A stretch of 64,000 bases of DNA from Qipengyuania gaetbuli (lineage in GTDB: Bacteria; Pseudomonadota; Alphaproteobacteria; Sphingomonadales; Sphingomonadaceae), in contig NZ_JAIUZO010000002.1 in the NCBI RefSeq assembly GCF_020171365.1, forward strand, positions 2,388,001-2,452,000, read 5' to 3'. The position numbers were made by a program, and so were the translations under genes. Within the stretch, counting starts at the first letter, position 1; every line of letters begins with the position of its first letter. This document shows positions 16,973 to 29,764 of this stretch, piece after piece. A model generated the notes under the pieces. It searched no databases, had not been told where the DNA came from, and saw only the letters and a program-made list of their open reading frames with translations.

Positions 16973-18790
16973 ATGACTGACCTTTCCAAGATCCGCAATT
17001 TCTCGATCATCGCCCATATCGATCACGGAAAGTCGACGCTCGCCGACCGGCTGATCCAGTTCACCGGCGGCCTGACCGACCGCGAGATGTCCGAGCAAGT
17101 CCTTGATAACATGGACATCGAGAAGGAACGCGGCATCACCATCAAGGCGCAGACCGTGCGCCTCAACTACACCGCCAAGGATGGCGAGACCTATGAGCTC
17201 AACCTCATGGACACGCCCGGCCACGTCGACTTCGCCTACGAGGTCTCGCGCTCCCTGGCCGCGTGCGAGGGCGCTCTGCTGGTTGTCGACGCCGCGCAGG
17301 GCGTGGAAGCCCAGACGCTCGCCAACGTCTACCAGTCGATCGAGCACGACCACGAAATCGTCCCCGTCATCAACAAGATCGACCTGCCCGCCGCCGAACC
17401 AGACAAGGTCCGCGCCGAGATCGAGGACATCATCGGCCTCGACGCATCGGACGCCGTCCTCACCTCGGCCAAGTCCGGCATCGGCATCGAGGACACGCTG
17501 GAGGCGCTCGTCGCCCGCATCCCGCCGCCGCAGGGCGACCGCGACGCGCCGCTGAAGGCCATGCTGGTCGACTCATGGTACGACCCCTACCTCGGCGTGG
17601 TCATCCTCGTGCGCGTGATGGACGGGGTCATCAAAAAGGGCCTCAACATCAAGTTCATGCAGGGCGGCACGCAGCACCTGATCGACCGCGTCGGCTGCTT
17701 CACCCCCAAGCGCACCGACCTGCCCGAACTGGGGCCGGGCGAGATCGGCTTCATCACCGCGCAGATCAAGGAAGTCGAACAGGCCCGCGTCGGCGACACC
17801 ATCACCACGGTGAAGGGCGGGGCGGACAAGGCGCTGCCCGGCTACAAGGAAGTGCAGCCGGTGGTCTTCTGCGGCCTCTTCCCGGTCGACGCGGCCGAGT
17901 TCGAGAAGCTGCGCGAAAGCATCGGCAAGCTGCGCCTCAACGACGCCAGCTTCAGCTACGAGATGGAAAGCAGCGCCGCGCTGGGCTTCGGCTTCCGCGC
18001 CGGCTTCCTCGGCCTGCTGCACCTGGAGATCATCCAGGAACGCCTCAGCCGCGAATACGACCTCGACCTCATCACCACGGCCCCGTCCGTGGTCTACCGC
18101 GTGCACCTCGCCCATACCAAGACCGAAGATGCCAAGGTCATCGACATCCACAACCCCGCCGACTGGCCGGACGTGAACCGGATCGACATGGTGGAGGAAC
18201 CGTGGATCAAGGCGACGATCTACACGCCCGACGACTATCTTGGGCCGATCCTGAAGCTGTGCCAGGACCGCCGCGGCATCCAGACCGACCTCACCTATGT
18301 CGGTGGCCGCGCGCAGGTGACCTACGAGCTGCCGCTGAACGAGGTGGTGTTCGATTTCTACGACCGCCTGAAGTCGATCAGCCGCGGCTATGCCAGCTTC
18401 GACTATGAACAGATCGGCCTGCGCGAAGGCGACCTCGTGAAGATGAACATCCTCGTCAACAACGAGCCGGTCGACGCGCTATCGCTGATCGTCCACCGCG
18501 CCGTGGCGGAAGAACGCGGTCGCGGCATGTGCGAACGGCTGAAGGACCTCATCCCGCGCCATTTGTTCAAGATCCCGATCCAGGCCGCGATCGGCGGCAA
18601 GATTATCGCCCGCGAAACTATCGCCGCCCTGCGCAAGGACGTCACCGCCAAGTGCTACGGCGGCGACATCACGCGCAAGAAGAAGCTGCTGGAGAAGCAG
18701 AAGAAGGGCAAGGCCCGGATGCGCGAGTACGGAAACGTGAGCATCCCGCAGGAGGCGTTTATCGCCGCGCTGCGGATGGGGGAGGAGTGA
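16973..18790 (+). CDS. lepA: elongation factor 4 (LepA), ribosome-associated GTPase
   Basis: A 605-residue translational GTPase. G1 is AHIDHGKST, the switch region has [12 protein letters not shown]3 is DTPGH and G4 is NKIDL, in the expected order in the first 130 residues. The C-terminal LepA-specific region is rich in lysine ([18 protein letters not shown]), which is family-typical. The length is normal, 16973 is the only plausible ATG, and no strong ribosome-binding site precedes it. It marks the left edge of the AT-rich insert that holds the next gene. Confidence 0.97.
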
Positions 18791-18825
18791 AGAAGGCGTG
18801 TACTTCTAGAGCTTGTAAGGATCTA

Positions 18826-20397
18826 TTAGTCCAGATCTGCTCCGAATAGCCTTTCCACGATGCGATCTGTCACGGCTTTATACGTTATTATGTCTTCATC
18901 GAGAATGTTAACTGTTGCGCGTTCATGAATTAATTTATTGCGCAAGTTCGCGTAATGACGGGCGAGGTCGAGGTCGCGCTTCGGTACTTTCGTGAGGGCT
19001 TCAATTTCCTTCAGTACTTTGTCTCTACTTTTAAAGAGATCGGCGATCTGGCTGTCAGAAAAATACTTCTTCTTCTGATGGACGAGGTACTCTTTCAAAG
19101 ATATTTCAAGTGTACTGTCTAAGACAATAAGGGCCACGCGATTCTTTGTCTGATACCTCCGCCTAAATATGATTTCTGCAAGGCCGACGGCCTCAATAAG
19201 GCCTCTGACCCAAGGCTTTTTCCGGAAGAGTGCTTCGTTCTGATCTAAGATTCTCTCCGGGTAGTTTTTTTGCCTTCCCCGTGGAACAGGTAGGGCTACA
19301 ATTTCTTTGCCGGTCAAACCTGGCTTGAGTTTTTTGGTTGAGAGGTTTCCGCTCTTATACGCGTAAACCTCACCTTCGCGATCACCCTTAAGCCTTCGAG
19401 ATATCGTCGAATAGCGTGTAGCGAGAGCAAATATCTCTTCTCGAATTTCTAAGTAGGCCGGGTGGCTCCAATTAATGCCGCTTTTGCTTGAATTCCATGG
19501 CATCTGCGTTGGCATCCCTGTCAGCTCAACGATGACACGACAAAGGGATGCATCTGGGTGCGGGACGCCAGCGAATTTCTGCATGAAACCCACATGGTGA
19601 CTCTTCTCATGCGAGAGGACCAAGCGCTCGTTGCAGTAGAAGTATACGCCATAGTTTCGATCGGAGGGGTCGCGGTCAAAAGTTAAACCACCTGTGATTT
19701 TCACTTTCACCTTTTTGGCATCGACGCCGAAAGGTCCGATCTCGCCAGTGTGCTGAACTGGTGAATAATCAGGTGGAAATGCCCATTGGTCGAACGCAAC
19801 GGCCTCTACATGTTCGCCATTGAATTCCAGGCGGCACTTGTCAGAAATGAACTTCCCGTATGTTTCAGCAAGATGCTTGCGAAGACTTTTTACGCCATCG
19901 GCATCAAATCCTTGCCTCATCTTAGAAATACGAACAGTTGTAGTATTGGCTGCAATGTTTTCTGATTCATAAACATCAACATTCCAGTCATTTTGACTAA
20001 GCCATTTATCGGACAGTTCGAATTCGAAAGTCTTGCCCTGTTTATGCCTCGTTTTAATCTCTACGAGTTCGCCAAGCGCAATTCCGGCACGCTTCCCACC
20101 GACCCCGAAATTTCCAATGAGGCCTTCTTGGATCTTCTCTCGACTTGCCCCGGGGGCGACAAGGAGCTGCAAATCGTCCTTGCTTACACCCCCTGCATTG
20201 TCGCTGATAACAATCGTTTGTCGGTCTAAATTGACGCGGACGCCTATTTTGAGAATGTTCCTACGTCCGCCATCGATCCAATGGTCGATCGCGTTGTCTA
20301 CCAATTCGCAGATAGCTGTCTTGATGTCATAGTCAGCAATGATGGATAGAAAAAGGCGCTTCTGCGGTGTTGCGTCGACATGGATAAGCTCTGACAT
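18826..20397 (-). CDS. GHKL-type ATPase with HEPN-like C-terminus, candidate defence protein
   Basis: A 523-residue protein in DNA clearly more AT-rich than all neighbours, with A/T-ending codons, suggesting horizontal acquisition. The N-terminus is a GHKL (Hsp90/MutL/MORC-like) ATPase: ELVDNAIDH (E31, N35), ISDNAGG (D66) and GNFGVGGKRAG (about 95-105). A middle region contains PTQMPWNSSKSGINW. The helical last 130 residues carry RNKLIH (R486, H491), an R-x4-H arrangement typical of HEPN ribonuclease-like domains. The ATG after GGGGAC was chosen; 21 extra upstream residues are possible but unlikely. ATPase-plus-HEPN designs occur in phage defence and toxin systems; that role here is inference. 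Confidence 0.78.
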   Translation of the reverse strand: MSELIHVDATPQKRLFLSIIADYDIKTAICELVDNAIDHWIDGGRRNILKIGVRVNLDRQTIVISDNAGGVSKDDLQLLVAPGASREKIQEGLIGNFGVGGKRAGIALGELVEIKTRHKQGKTFEFELSDKWLSQNDWNVDVYESENIAANTTTVRISKMRQGFDADGVKSLRKHLAETYGKFISDKCRLEFNGEHVEAVAFDQWAFPPDYSPVQHTGEIGPFGVDAKKVKVKITGGLTFDRDPSDRNYGVYFYCNERLVLSHEKSHHVGFMQKFAGVPHPDASLCRVIVELTGMPTQMPWNSSKSGINWSHPAYLEIREEIFALATRYSTISRRLKGDREGEVYAYKSGNLSTKKLKPGLTGKEIVALPVPRGRQKNYPERILDQNEALFRKKPWVRGLIEAVGLAEIIFRRRYQTKNRVALIVLDSTLEISLKEYLVHQKKKYFSDSQIADLFKSRDKVLKEIEALTKVPKRDLDLARHYANLRNKLIHERATVNILDEDIITYKAVTDRIVERLFGADLD

Positions 20398-20641
20398 TTT
20401 GTCCCCAATTAAAAATCCACTTGTACAATATGATGCAAATAAAGAGATGAAAAGGATCACTCAGTCAATTCAACCGCATCCTAACCAGCTTCTCGCTCAA
20501 TTAAATTAAATGCCGCCTCTTGAGCCCGCATCTCCATCACCATTAGCATCCGCGCCCCTTGGCTTCCTCGCATAAGCTCGGGCGGCCGGTCGGCCTTGCG
20601 GTCCGTTGGTCGCGGACCGGACCCGCGCGAACCGTGAAGGC

Positions 20642-21466
20642 CTAATCCCACTCCTCATCCTTAAGCGACCGCAGGCGCAGGCGGTTTTCCGCTTCCTCGG
20701 CTTCCATTTCCGCGACCTCGTCGTCCCACCACTCGGGTAGCTGGACCTCGCCGTCCTCGCGCGTCCGGCGGGCGAGGTTGGGGTTGTACATTTCGTGCTC
20801 GGGATCGCGCCGGGGGTTGTAGCCTTCGGCGCGGTCGGCGGCGATTGCGGCTTCCAGTGCCTCGCGCGCGGCGCGCACGCGGGGGCTTTCGATGGCTTCC
20901 TCCCGCGCGCGGATCGCGTCGATCTTGGCGTTGATCGATTCCATGGTCACCGCCTCCTGCTTCAACTGCTCGGCGGCGCGTTCGGCCTCCCATTCCTTGC
21001 GCCACTGTTTGCGCAGGCGGGTAAGTTCCATCCTGTCGATCGCGTTCCCGCCGCCCTGTCGCAGGGCGCTGCGGCCATCGGCAAAGCGATCGGGTGAGCG
21101 GTTCCTCAGCATGAACATGAGCAGGCGGTCGTTATGCGAAATGCGCGTGCCGACGAGCTTGCCGTAGGAGTACACGGGCACCTCCACCCCGTTCAAGGCG
21201 CGGTCCATGGCGACGTCCTCGATCCGGCGCATGCCGAAATCGAGCGCGGCTTCCCAGGCGGCGGCGAATTCCTCCGCCCCCGGCTGGCGGCGCAGATGGT
21301 AGGCGCCATGCGTGCTGCGCCCCACCGCGCGGCAGGCCGAGGTGACGGAGCCGGTATCGGCCAGCGCCTCGATGAAGGCGCGCTGGACTTCGGGTTTCCA
21401 TCCGTTGCTGCGGTCCTTCAGGCGCGGGACGGGGGCGAAGGCGGGGAGGAGTTTGGGTGTGCTCAT
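20642..21466 (-). CDS. orphan protein with terminase-small-subunit-like HTH N-terminus
   Basis: A 274-residue protein without a firm assignment. The first half contains an HTH-like segment (RAFIEALADTGSVTSACRAVG) followed by AAWEAALDFGMRRIEDVAMDRAL, an arrangement reminiscent of phage terminase small subunits or related DNA-binding adapters. The second half is strongly charged and probably coiled-coil (repeated Arg/Glu/Ala), ending in an acidic tail. No phage genes flank it. Codon use is GC-rich like the host genome, unlike the neighbouring ATPase gene, so the two probably have separate histories. A domesticated phage gene is possible; the cellular role is unknown. Confidence 0.65.
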   Translation of the reverse strand: MSTPKLLPAFAPVPRLKDRSNGWKPEVQRAFIEALADTGSVTSACRAVGRSTHGAYHLRRQPGAEEFAAAWEAALDFGMRRIEDVAMDRALNGVEVPVYSYGKLVGTRISHNDRLLMFMLRNRSPDRFADGRSALRQGGGNAIDRMELTRLRKQWRKEWEAERAAEQLKQEAVTMESINAKIDAIRAREEAIESPRVRAAREALEAAIAADRAEGYNPRRDPEHEMYNPNLARRTREDGEVQLPEWWDDEVAEMEAEEAENRLRLRSLKDEEWD

Positions 21467-24804: not shown

Positions 24805-26070
24805 TCAGGGCCGCGTCTGGCCAGTACCGTGTACCAGGTATTTGAAGCTGCACAGCTGTTCCAGGCCGACCGGTCCGCGCGCGTGCATCTTGCCGGTAGC
24901 GATGCCGATTTCCGCGCCCATGCCGAACTCGCCGCCGTCGGAGAACTGGGTGGAGGCATTGTGCATGACGACGGCGCTGTCCACGCCGAGCAGGAAGCGG
25001 CGAGCGGCCTCGTCGTCTTCGGTCAGGATCGCGTCGGTATGATGGCTCGAATGGTCTTCGACCCAGGCGATTGCTTCATCGAGCCCGTCCACGATTTTCA
25101 CCGAGGCGATGGGGCCGAGGTATTCGGTGTCCCAGTCCTGCTCGTCGGCGGCCGCGATGCGCGCGTCGATGGCGACGGCTTCCGCATCGCCGCGCAATTC
25201 GCAATCGGCTGCCATCGCGTCGGCGACGGCAGGGACCGCCTTGCCCGCAATGCTGCGGTCGATCACGATGCTTTCGGTCGCCCCGCAAACGCCTGTGCGG
25301 CGCAGCTTTGCGTTGCGGATGACGTCCACTGCCTTCGCGACGTCGGCGGCTTCATGGATGTAGCTGTGGCAATTGCCGTCGAGGTGGAGAAGCGTGGGCA
25401 CGCTCGCCTGGTCGCGCACCAGTTCGACGAGGCCGCGTCCGCCGCGCGGGATGACGAGGTCGACGAACTTGTCGGCCTTCAATAGCGCGGCCACTGCGGC
25501 ACGGTCGGTCGTCTGCACTGTCTGTACCGCATCGCGCGGTAATCCGGCAGCCTCGAGACCGGCCTGCATGCAGTCGACGATCACGCGCGTGGATTGGCGG
25601 CTTTCGCTACCGCCGCGCAGGATCACGGCATTGCCGCTCTTGAGGCACAGAGCCGATGCATCCGCGCCGACATTCGGGCGGCTCTCGTAAATCATGCCGA
25701 TGACCCCGATGGGGACGGCTACGCGTTCGATTTTCAGGCCATTGGGCCTCTCGAAGGTGGCGAGCGAGCGGCCGACGGGATCGGGCAGTTCGGCAATCTC
25801 CTCCAGCGCCTTTGCCATGCCCTCGATCCGCTCTTCGTCGAGGCGCAGGCGGTCGATGAAGCTGTCGGGTTTCTTGCCGGCGACACTGGCGACGTCGCGG
25901 TCGTTCGCTTCGATCAGTTCGGCACTCGCGTTGCGGAGGGCCTTGGCGGCCTGGCGCAGGGCCGCGTTCTTGGCATCGGTGCTGGCGGATACGAGACCGC
26001 GTGCAGCCTTGCGGGCGCGCTGGCCTAGCTCATGAATATGGATCTGGGGGTCGAGTGCCTGGTCGGTCAT
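24805..26070 (-). CDS. proA: gamma-glutamyl phosphate reductase
   Basis: Second enzyme of proline synthesis: reduces glutamyl-5-phosphate to the semialdehyde with NADPH. The 421-residue product has the aldehyde-dehydrogenase fold, with [12 protein letters not shown] containing the catalytic cysteine, and [24 protein letters not shown] as the cofactor region. The ATG at 26070 gives the normal N-terminus; a longer frame would add 31 residues without family support. It follows proC by about 46 bases in the same direction, so the two probably form an operon. Confidence 0.96.
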
Positions 26071-26116
26071 GTGAATTCTCTTGTCTGTTCGTGTGCGGGG
26101 CGGGTGCTGCCGCTGG

Positions 26117-26884
26117 TCAGCGCAGCTCGACCGCCCTGTCGTAAGCCGCCTGCAATGTAGCACGCAGGCGATCGGTTAGGCCATCGTCGCCGTTGAGTGC
26201 GGCGAGGCCGGCGGCGGTAGTGCCGCCCTTGCTGGTGACGGAGTTGCGCAACTCCTCCAACGACAGCGCGCCCGGCTCGCTCGCCATGGCGATTGCACCG
26301 CCGATGGTGCCCAGCACCATTTCGCGCGCCTGCTGTTCGGTGAAGCCCTGTTCCATCGCGGCCAGCGCATAGGCGCGGGCGATTTCGAAGACGTAGCCGG
26401 GGCCCGAACCTGCAACTGCCGTCACGCGGTCGAGCTCGTCCTCGCTGGCGACGGTTACGGTCGTTCCGGCACGGGCCATGAAGTCCTGCACGTGCGCAAT
26501 CTGAGCCTCGGTAGCGCCTTCGGCGGGGTAAATGCCGCTGACGCCTCGCCCGATGGCTGCGGGAAGGTTCGGCATGACACGCACGACCGGCGCGCCGTTC
26601 ATGGCCTGCGAGAGGCGGCCGGCGGAATAGCCTGCCGCGATGGACAGGACATAGCCGCCCGGCGCGAGGTTTGCGGCATAGGTAGGCATGATATCGTCGA
26701 TCATCTGCGGCTTCACCGCGACGACGATGCAATCGAAGCCTTCGCCTTCGATTTGCGCACGGTCGGACAGGAGCCGCGCGCCGCCGGGCACGCTTTCCTG
26801 GCCGGGATCGACCACGGTGATCGATTCCCGACCCTTGGCCCATTGACCCAATAGAGCGGATCCCATCTTTCCGCATCCGACCAT
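26117..26884 (-). CDS. proC: pyrroline-5-carboxylate reductase
   Basis: Last step of proline synthesis, an NAD(P)H-dependent reductase of 255 residues from the first ATG. The dinucleotide loop VGCGKMGSA sits right at that ATG, which would cut most of the first beta-strand of the Rossmann fold. Six upstream codons read IINTVL and restore the strand; they begin at an ATT (26902-26900) preceded by AGGAAA at good spacing, so a non-AUG start is plausible. The C-terminal GSGPGYVFE and [13 protein letters not shown] segments are family-typical. It is followed by proA and is divergent from proB. Confidence 0.94.
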
Positions 26885-27017
26885 GAGTACCGTATTGATA
26901 ATGGTTGTTTCCTGTTCCCGCGTCAGATCGCGATTTCACAAAATGAATATTACTTCAAAATACTTCGAGCACTTGGAATTCAGATGAATTTATTTCTTTA
27001 GATAAACATCTTTACGC

Positions 27018-29589: not shown

Positions 29590-29673
29590 CCGGACCTTGA
29601 AACCGGATCGCTTTGGTCGCATTTAGACAATGCGGACCGGGCCCCTCTGGCGTGCGCCTCTTGTGCGAACGTG

Positions 29674-29764
29674 ATGTCGGACCGCATCGGACAACCGATG
29701 CGTGCTGGCAGGCCCTTTCCCCTCCCCTCCCAGCCTACCGGCCCATCGGCTGTCCGATCGACAT
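29674..29764. repeat. duplicated dyad / long inverted repeat upstream of the DUF465-like gene
   Basis: Two similar dyads lie 59 bases apart centre to centre: an 8-bp stem with ACAA loop at 29683-29702 (CATCGG-N4-CCGATG core) and ATCGG-CTGT-CCGAT at 29745-29758. The two segments are also inverted repeats of each other: 29674-29679, 29686-29693 and 29695-29700 pair with 29759-29764, 29751-29758 and 29744-29749. It may be a double operator, or an RNA element with two exclusive folds. Confidence 0.6.

Follow-up and report, generated by a model that had tools for sequence, protein, structure and literature searches.

The gene and its flanks

The 64,000-nucleotide stretch of the Qipengyuania gaetbuli genome analysed here (contig NZ_JAIUZO010000002.1, positions 2,388,001 to 2,452,000; referred to as the window) contains, between lepA and a gene resembling those of phage terminase small subunits (tsl), a gene for a protein, P0001, with the motifs of a GHKL ATPase and a HEPN-like C-terminus. 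Features of this region are given below in window coordinates; loci and genomes used for comparison are designated by L and G numbers.

16973 to 18790, plus strand: lepA (elongation factor 4), a conserved flank, from Pfam, synteny in 40 of 40 fetched genus genomes and the junctions of three genomes
18791 to 20641, no strand: variable interval (hotspot cargo), 1851 bp here and 2439 to 6123 bp in 40 relatives; in the relatives it was measured as far as the tsl match extends, so that a partial match overstates the length by as much as about 0.45 kb
18826 to 20397, minus strand: GHKL-HEPN gene (P0001), 523 residues, from its open reading frame (ORF) and translation; cargo of the Q. gaetbuli genome at the hotspot
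18829 to 19272, minus strand: predicted C-terminal HEPN domain, residues 376-523
18925 to 18942, minus strand: R486-N-K-L-I-H491 (R-x4-H motif), conserved among the listed long homologues
19348 to 19917, minus strand: middle domain of S5-like transducer type, spanning approximately residues 161-350
19918 to 20370, minus strand: GHKL ATPase domain, about residues 10-160 (E31, N35, D66, F97-GVGGKRA-G105), from Pfam and motif conservation
20520 to 20604, plus strand: partial copy of a hairpin repeat, from an R1 hit of 54.8 bits and alignment, with covariation assessed on 19 other copies
20642 to 21466, minus strand: tsl, a conserved flank and member of a paralogous family, from PHROG 4044

The GHKL-HEPN gene was the sole gene in the interval, and the plus strand of 18826-20397 contained 14 stops. 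An alternative GTG start at 20460, 63 bases upstream of the ATG at 20397, would extend the protein to 544 residues; the ATG was preferred because the four closest homologues (P0002 to P0005, 84-88% identical) are each 523 residues long. G+C content was about 0.47 over the gene compared with 0.57-0.69 in 1-kb segments clear of it. The G+C content at third codon positions (GC3) was 0.51 (0.50 for the 544-residue form) and was the lowest among 44 window ORFs (median 0.79), these being ORFs of at least 150 residues chosen greedily with little overlap, some perhaps in the wrong frame (e.g., that with the next-lowest GC3, 26067-26939). These values bear out the AT-richness noted in an earlier reading made from the DNA letters alone (the sequence-only reading), and the neighbours were as first described, with a convergent lepA 36 bp away and a terminase-small-subunit-like gene on the other side.

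Domains of P0001

A match to Pfam HATPase_c_3 (PF13589) covered residues 23-149 (E 3.2e-11, 43.9 bits against a cut-off of 25). Motifs of GHKL ATPases follow the layout E/N, D-x-G-G and G-x-G-G-K. Among 120 listed homologues, query included, E31 was conserved in 120, N35 in 120, D66 in 119 and G98 in 120, and the glycine-loop residues G100, G101 and K102 in 120, 113 and 119, respectively; the GHKL boxes noted in the sequence-only reading are intact. By its sequence motifs, P0001 is a member of the GHKL ATPase superfamily, and its structure as modelled, a GHKL domain followed by an S5-type second domain with MORC as the closest fold, indicates that the ATPase part is MORC-like.

The C-terminal domain was folded separately because MORC and Hsp90 chains filled the fold-search list of the full-length protein. 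Alone, it was predicted with confidence as a helical bundle (predicted local distance difference test score, pLDDT, 95.8) and its top matches in the PDB were HEPN proteins. R486 and H491 were each present in 116 of the 117 listed homologues that extend to the motif column. The R-x4-H motif was found in 159 of 161 long homologues (at least 480 residues, drawn from 163 listed proteins), the exceptions being one truncated and one degenerate protein, and the fuller pattern RN-x-[L/F/M]-x-H in 158. A Pfam scan of P0001 showed no DUF4263 at E 1, the fold being of HEPN type instead. The model and the motif give this region the alpha-helical bundle and R-x4-6-H of the HEPN superfamily, and RNase activity is predicted from them.

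Several observations weigh against this assignment or against its catalytic version. Foldseek against the PDB gave no match for the domain below E 0.001 (best 0.055), and Z scores are inflated by helical bundles. Pfam HEPN families were not matched by the query at E 1 nor by its C-terminal fragment at 0.1, and matched only weakly, in 12 of 75 and 10 of 82 sequences, the family in the latter case being HEPN_RiboL-PSP. As to the type of HEPN, Ymh (PF09509) was absent from the 15 families matched by the 82 sequences at E 0.1, although remote members could escape a profile search. A BFVD search with the domain gave no match at E 0.001. Of the two checks proposed for a HEPN-like C-terminus, structure prediction came out in its favour and the profile search was weak. 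According to passages of PMC3710099, not every HEPN domain is an RNase and some are inactive. This statement, the missing Pfam match and the predicted status of the activity would suit an explanation in which the HEPN-like bundle binds RNA or a partner without catalysis, the ATPase itself being the effector. We consider this the least probable of the explanations weighed here, since the R and H of nearly all long homologues, almost always accompanied by N and L/F/M, form an active-site pattern. The reading of the C-terminus as a HEPN-type RNase domain is retained below.

Exchange of genes between lepA and tsl

The lepA-tsl site was compared in 40 genomes, namely the 42 with the best tsl scores (to G018) of 60 genus genomes, minus G000 (the window) and G054 (contig end); selection was by tsl score and not lepA synteny. 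In all 40, lepA and tsl were convergent, and empty sites were found in none of 41 genomes, window included. On the question raised by the sequence-only reading, whether lepA lies directly next to the 20642 gene in relatives, the facing order held throughout these genomes, but direct adjacency did not, other cargo always lying between. In the two nearest relatives, LepA was 99.7% identical, yet the interval genes were markedly different and sequence identity stopped within a few bases of the lepA stop codon. The 41 intervals held 130 ORFs of at least 80 residues in 89 clusters, 74 of them singletons; these ORFs were chosen greedily by length and some are spurious. The last cluster of L086 to L089 resembles the tsl C-terminus, an effect of ending each interval where its tblastn match stopped. 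Over 17 arbitrary 16-kb genus stretches (controls) the lowest 1.5-kb G+C content was 0.559, and 39 of 40 lepA-tsl loci fell lower, the value compared being the minimum of the whole locus and not of the interval. These results support the placement of the GHKL-HEPN gene as cargo of a site that exchanges its content among the genus genomes compared.

The tsl product matched the PHROG 4044 terminase small subunit over residues 27-160 (E 4.6e-20). That tsl arrived with the insertion or marks a recent prophage was ruled out by a family match in 59 of 60 genus genomes, paralogues counted, and by its position facing lepA in 40 of 40.

Cargo of relatives was classified by a Pfam run on 40 ORFs from 37 of the 40 genomes, with L059, L083 and L084 assigned through clusters only. 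Assignments were by Pfam unless marked as by cluster.

EcoRI-type methylase with GmrSD/HNH: L055
Eco57I-type: L056, L074, L075
MmeI: L068
Type ISP: L085
D12 methylases: L060, L064; by cluster L054, L071
C5 methylases: L061, L070; by cluster L066, L079, L083
Reverse transcriptases: L058, L063
SIR2-like: L062; by cluster L082
HD/dGTPase-like: L053; by cluster L059, L084
UvrD or ResIII helicases: L051, L057, L081
AIPR: L076
MazG_C: L072, L073
IrrE: L052
Nucleotidyltransferase: L078
TPR-S/TRAF-binding: L088
HerA-like DUF87: L089
DUF3644: L090
HNH_2 protein: L065, L067; by cluster L052, L059, L062, L063, L069, L076, L078, L080, L084, L087, L090 and others

The families listed ahead of the HNH_2 protein are of kinds that occur in defence or abortive-infection systems. 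A restriction-modification (R-M) methyltransferase or enzyme was present in 15 of 40 genomes. The HNH_2 protein, about 298 residues, recurs adjoining tsl (a 16-member cluster including some fragments, with Pfam HNH_2 in L065 and L067) and was the sole recognised cargo in L065, L067, L069, L080 and L087. Nothing defence-like was noted in L077 (transposase) and L086 (aspartyl protease). Six of the 40 scanned ORFs had no Pfam family (L054, two in L069, L080, L082 and L087), and none belonged to an integrase family; an IS1595-type transposase occurred in L077 and, by cluster, in L072. In a PADLOC tally over 94 cargo proteins and P0001, which shows families and not individual proteins, 305 families were matched at 1e-5 over 95 proteins, most commonly type II methyltransferases and mads_2, and none by P0001. 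Another hotspot GHKL protein of 557 residues (L066:5446-7116) holds R-D-A-V-G-H in its terminal region, likewise an R-x4-H.

Distribution and settings of the family

Among 7995 proteins scored, 1599 were homologues of P0001 at E 0.001, a large family in public data. A full-length member was found in only one of 60 genus genomes, the source of the window; in 13 others only part of the protein matched, in the GHKL region and at 24-35% identity, and some of these matches fell within other GHKL proteins. A 37% identical full-length relative was present in one genome of another family in the order, matches of any kind in 15 of 99 genomes, and matches at E 1e-60 in two of 289 sampled genomes of the class. 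The family is rare within any single clade and its distribution is patchy. Vertical inheritance of the gene was ruled out by the single full-length occurrence in the genus, and a transferred origin, as first proposed, is supported.

A PDB search with the single P0001 sequence gave no match, and viral contigs scanned with the family alignment gave no relative. The contig scan with the single sequence gave three loci, two of them one and the same stretch of a metagenome-assembled genome. Phage records gave two matches, to the ATPase part only; in the Pseudomonas filamentous phage PfAC20 (L020, 280-1605) an inovirus-borne relative of this part lies two genes from a cytosine methyltransferase gene. 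A split homologue on a Rhizobium plasmid is next to a gene pair for an AAA ATPase and an endonuclease; DUF4365, SEC-C and methyltransferase genes are close by. Reading by eye placed the Sulfitobacter litoralis homologue (L002) next to genes for an OLD-like ATPase and for a UvrD-like helicase. Lone low-GC homologue genes were noted in L003 (split) and L180.

These settings bear on whether the gene is an accessory of R-M, acting in the manner proposed for paraMORC proteins. The ATPase would then loop or slide on DNA together with a methyltransferase from another locus, and the HEPN domain would be a back-up toxin if restriction fails. Consistent with such a role, passages of PMC2292703 and PMC3710099 place paraMORC and paraMORC-HEPN genes in R-M operons, hotspot GHKL genes accompany C5 methyltransferase genes in L066 and L079, and the Rhizobium homologue has a methyltransferase about 2 kb away. 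The L079 protein is shorter, and its neighbours, a C5 methylase together with Vsr-like and Methyltransf_35 genes, give it a paraMORC setting. The gene is alone in the window interval, as are the copies in L003 and L180, and the L066 and L079 proteins lack the RN-x-L-x-HER ending, which makes an R-M accessory unlikely, if the most credible of the alternatives. A stress or dormancy toxin, or a sacsin-type chaperone-like regulator with no phage connection, is distinctly less probable than that, as no antitoxin-like partner is present in the 1.85-kb interval and many cargo genes of other strains are of R-M and other defence types.

Proposed function

We regard the GHKL-HEPN gene, with good though incomplete confidence, as a horizontally acquired and probably single-gene anti-phage system in the lepA-tsl exchange site, with RNase activity and defence both predicted. 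A one-gene role against viruses is probable because a foreign gene for an ATPase and a predicted RNA-cutting domain occupies a slot that holds many defence-type genes in relatives. The overall view of the sequence-only reading, transferred cargo and a candidate defence gene, is supported and is backed by the exchange site in 40 of 40 genomes. The MORC-like GHKL-S5 ATPase would dimerise on ATP and serve as sensor and clamp, and an infection cue (phage DNA, a protein or a nucleotide signal) may alter its ATP state. Two C-terminal HEPN domains would thereby be brought together as an active dimer that cuts RNA via R486 and H491, and this cutting would halt infection, most likely through arrest of the cell.

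Other results count against a defence role. No family of PADLOC-DB 2.0.0 matched P0001 at E 1, and seven of 40 hotspots held no recognised defence-type family, five of them apart from HNH_2. The copies in L003 and Rhizobium are split into two ORFs and the gene can therefore decay; the G241 scan showed one stop within the match, yet L180 has a 530-residue ORF. The G065 relative (L179) lies near thymidylate synthase- and kinase-like genes of nucleotide metabolism and no known defence genes.

Further tsl loci and a covarying hairpin repeat

At E 0.001, five tsl matches were present in the source genome. A second copy (tsl2, L091 to L106) lies near a cluster identified by eye as rpsL-rpsG-fusA. 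By eye, unshared low-GC ORFs occupied the tsl2-rpsL stretch in most of 16 fetched genomes, and the cargo included a TIR-like 366-residue protein in the source genome (L091), ATPases and a D12 methylase-like protein. The G+C minimum was below the control value of 0.559 in 15 of 16 tsl2 loci. In four sister-genus loci lepA and tsl likewise lay side by side, separated by an interval that is low-GC in part, and in five loci rpsL was no more than about 4 kb from tsl.

A three-hairpin repeat, about 85 bp long, adjoins tsl, and further copies are dispersed through the genomes. The window copy has lost its left arm, and in this single case the cargo junction coincides roughly with the hairpin 1 loop. 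Covariation was judged on 19 aligned copies by five measures, two of which were not decisive. Standard pairs filled 96.5% of pair cells compared with 76.8 in shuffles, and cells changed on both sides numbered 45, where shuffles gave 12.5 (standard deviation 2.6) and slid structures no more than 6. The indecisive measures were pairs changed on both sides (8 vs 6.5), with 74 of 500 shuffles attaining the observed value, and further pair types (15 vs 12.6), with 34 of 500 doing so.

At E 0.05 a model of the repeat hit 35 of 57 tsl loci, with 55 hits in all. Of these, 53 lay no more than about 600 bp from tsl, where an even spread would place about 7 (tsl with 600 bp on each side being about 13% of the sequence); the 19 training copies are among the hits and count toward the association by construction, because the model was trained on copies from tsl loci. 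The 5' copies had the direction of tsl in 25 of 39 cases and the 3' copies the opposite direction in 12 of 14. No hit appeared in 17 control stretches (272 kb). Across the 60 genus genomes, 50 of the best 150 copies, 19 of them training copies, lay at most 1 kb from the 150 listed tsl matches, with 0.27 expected under uniform placement. An unlisted tsl-like ORF was present beside five of 20 other fetched copies and in none of the control stretches; L153, L157, L158 and L168, each with an unlisted tsl-like gene, a repeat and an adjacent low-GC stretch, are probably a further site of the same kind. Rfam searches of six sources, at the gathering threshold, gave no match for the repeat. Elsewhere in the window, a terC RNA (RF03067) was noted at 29629-29689 (60.1 bits).

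From these findings we tentatively suggest, while thinking it rather doubtful as a whole, that the slot is one of several made by a new kind of minimal exchange platform without a recognised integrase, consisting of a DNA-binding tsl protein bracketed by covarying, often inverted hairpin repeats. The repeats would be recognition or recombination sites, REPtron- or pac-like, the GHKL-HEPN gene would be one cassette, and the platform would maintain a turnover of defence cargo next to lepA, rpsL and other core genes in this bacterial family. Opposed to such a platform are the 22 of 57 tsl loci without a repeat hit, the weakness (below 22 bits) of about ten of the 55 hits, and the 15 of 20 copies, picked away from listed tsl genes, that have no tsl-like ORF within about 3 kb. 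Low G+C content was less frequent in the tsl3 group (L111 to L130; 11 of 20 loci below 0.559), and minima at three further source-genome tsl loci were 0.506 and 0.513 (below the control) and 0.615 (not). Of 20 loci taken from sister genera and further families, one (L216) contained the repeat, and no clear low-GC pattern was seen for copies (L224 to L228) from other families within the order.

Relation to known systems and significance

GHKL-HEPN fusions (paraMORC-Ymh) were described in 2013 by Anantharaman et al. (PMC3710099), so the architecture of P0001 is not wholly new. A GHKL ATPase, a C-terminal HEPN domain and mobile defence settings are common to both; passages of that paper describe a Ymh HEPN within R-M loci, whereas the P0001 family matches RiboL-PSP HEPN weakly and the gene in the window stands alone between two core genes. 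The same passages propose that paraMORC-Ymh proteins resemble PrrC and RloC in function, and present sacsin, a human protein with a HEPN domain, as a giant multidomain eukaryotic protein; it was absent from the 32 PDB sequences found by the P0001 profile. The MORC and paraMORC ATPases encoded in R-M operons (Iyer et al. 2008, PMC2292703) share the GHKL and S5 module and the MORC-like fold, but the P0001 interval has no helicase, methyltransferase or Vsr gene and P0001 has a HEPN tail.

VcSduA, a Shedu protein with a GHKL N-terminus (PMC12137116, 2025), has the same one-gene logic of a GHKL ATPase ahead of a nuclease and is proven anti-phage, E27A and K557A abolishing defence; similar proteins were formerly named paraMORC3. 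Its effector is PD-(D/E)xK (DUF4263), reportedly restricting phage with survival of the host, whereas that of P0001 is HEPN, a predicted RNase. DS-11, a CBS-HEPN protein from DefensePredictor, likewise combines a nucleotide-binding regulator and HEPN in one protein, with CBS, thought to control HEPN, instead of a GHKL ATPase (excerpts of PMC13092281). A literature search of titles, abstracts and passages, with subscription papers and preprints mostly outside its coverage, found no GHKL-HEPN fusion tested against phage.

E. coli defence hotspots (PMC10121019, in part) are, like lepA-tsl, fixed chromosomal slots with exchanged defence cargo. The nearest idea to a hotspot-terminase link is lateral transduction of defence islands, in which, according to sections of PMC12829572, terS/pac elements can drive cargo transfer. 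Unlike what these sources describe, the standing flank at lepA-tsl is an orphan terminase-small-like gene with hairpin repeats, and a search by title and abstract gave no description of the hotspot or of a terminase-small link.

If the proposed function is correct, a one-gene design in which a MORC-like ATPase gates a HEPN RNase would be added to the anti-phage repertoire beside GHKL-Shedu, and the way in which MORC-type ATPases read invading DNA could be studied in a simple system. The hotspot is of greater importance than the gene, and the slot may be the bigger discovery. Never empty in 41 genus genomes, and with six of 40 scanned cargo ORFs outside any Pfam family, it eases location-based discovery of defence genes in this group, and, with an orphan terminase-small-like gene tied to structured repeats and to defence cargo, the manner in which such hotspots exchange their content becomes directly testable.
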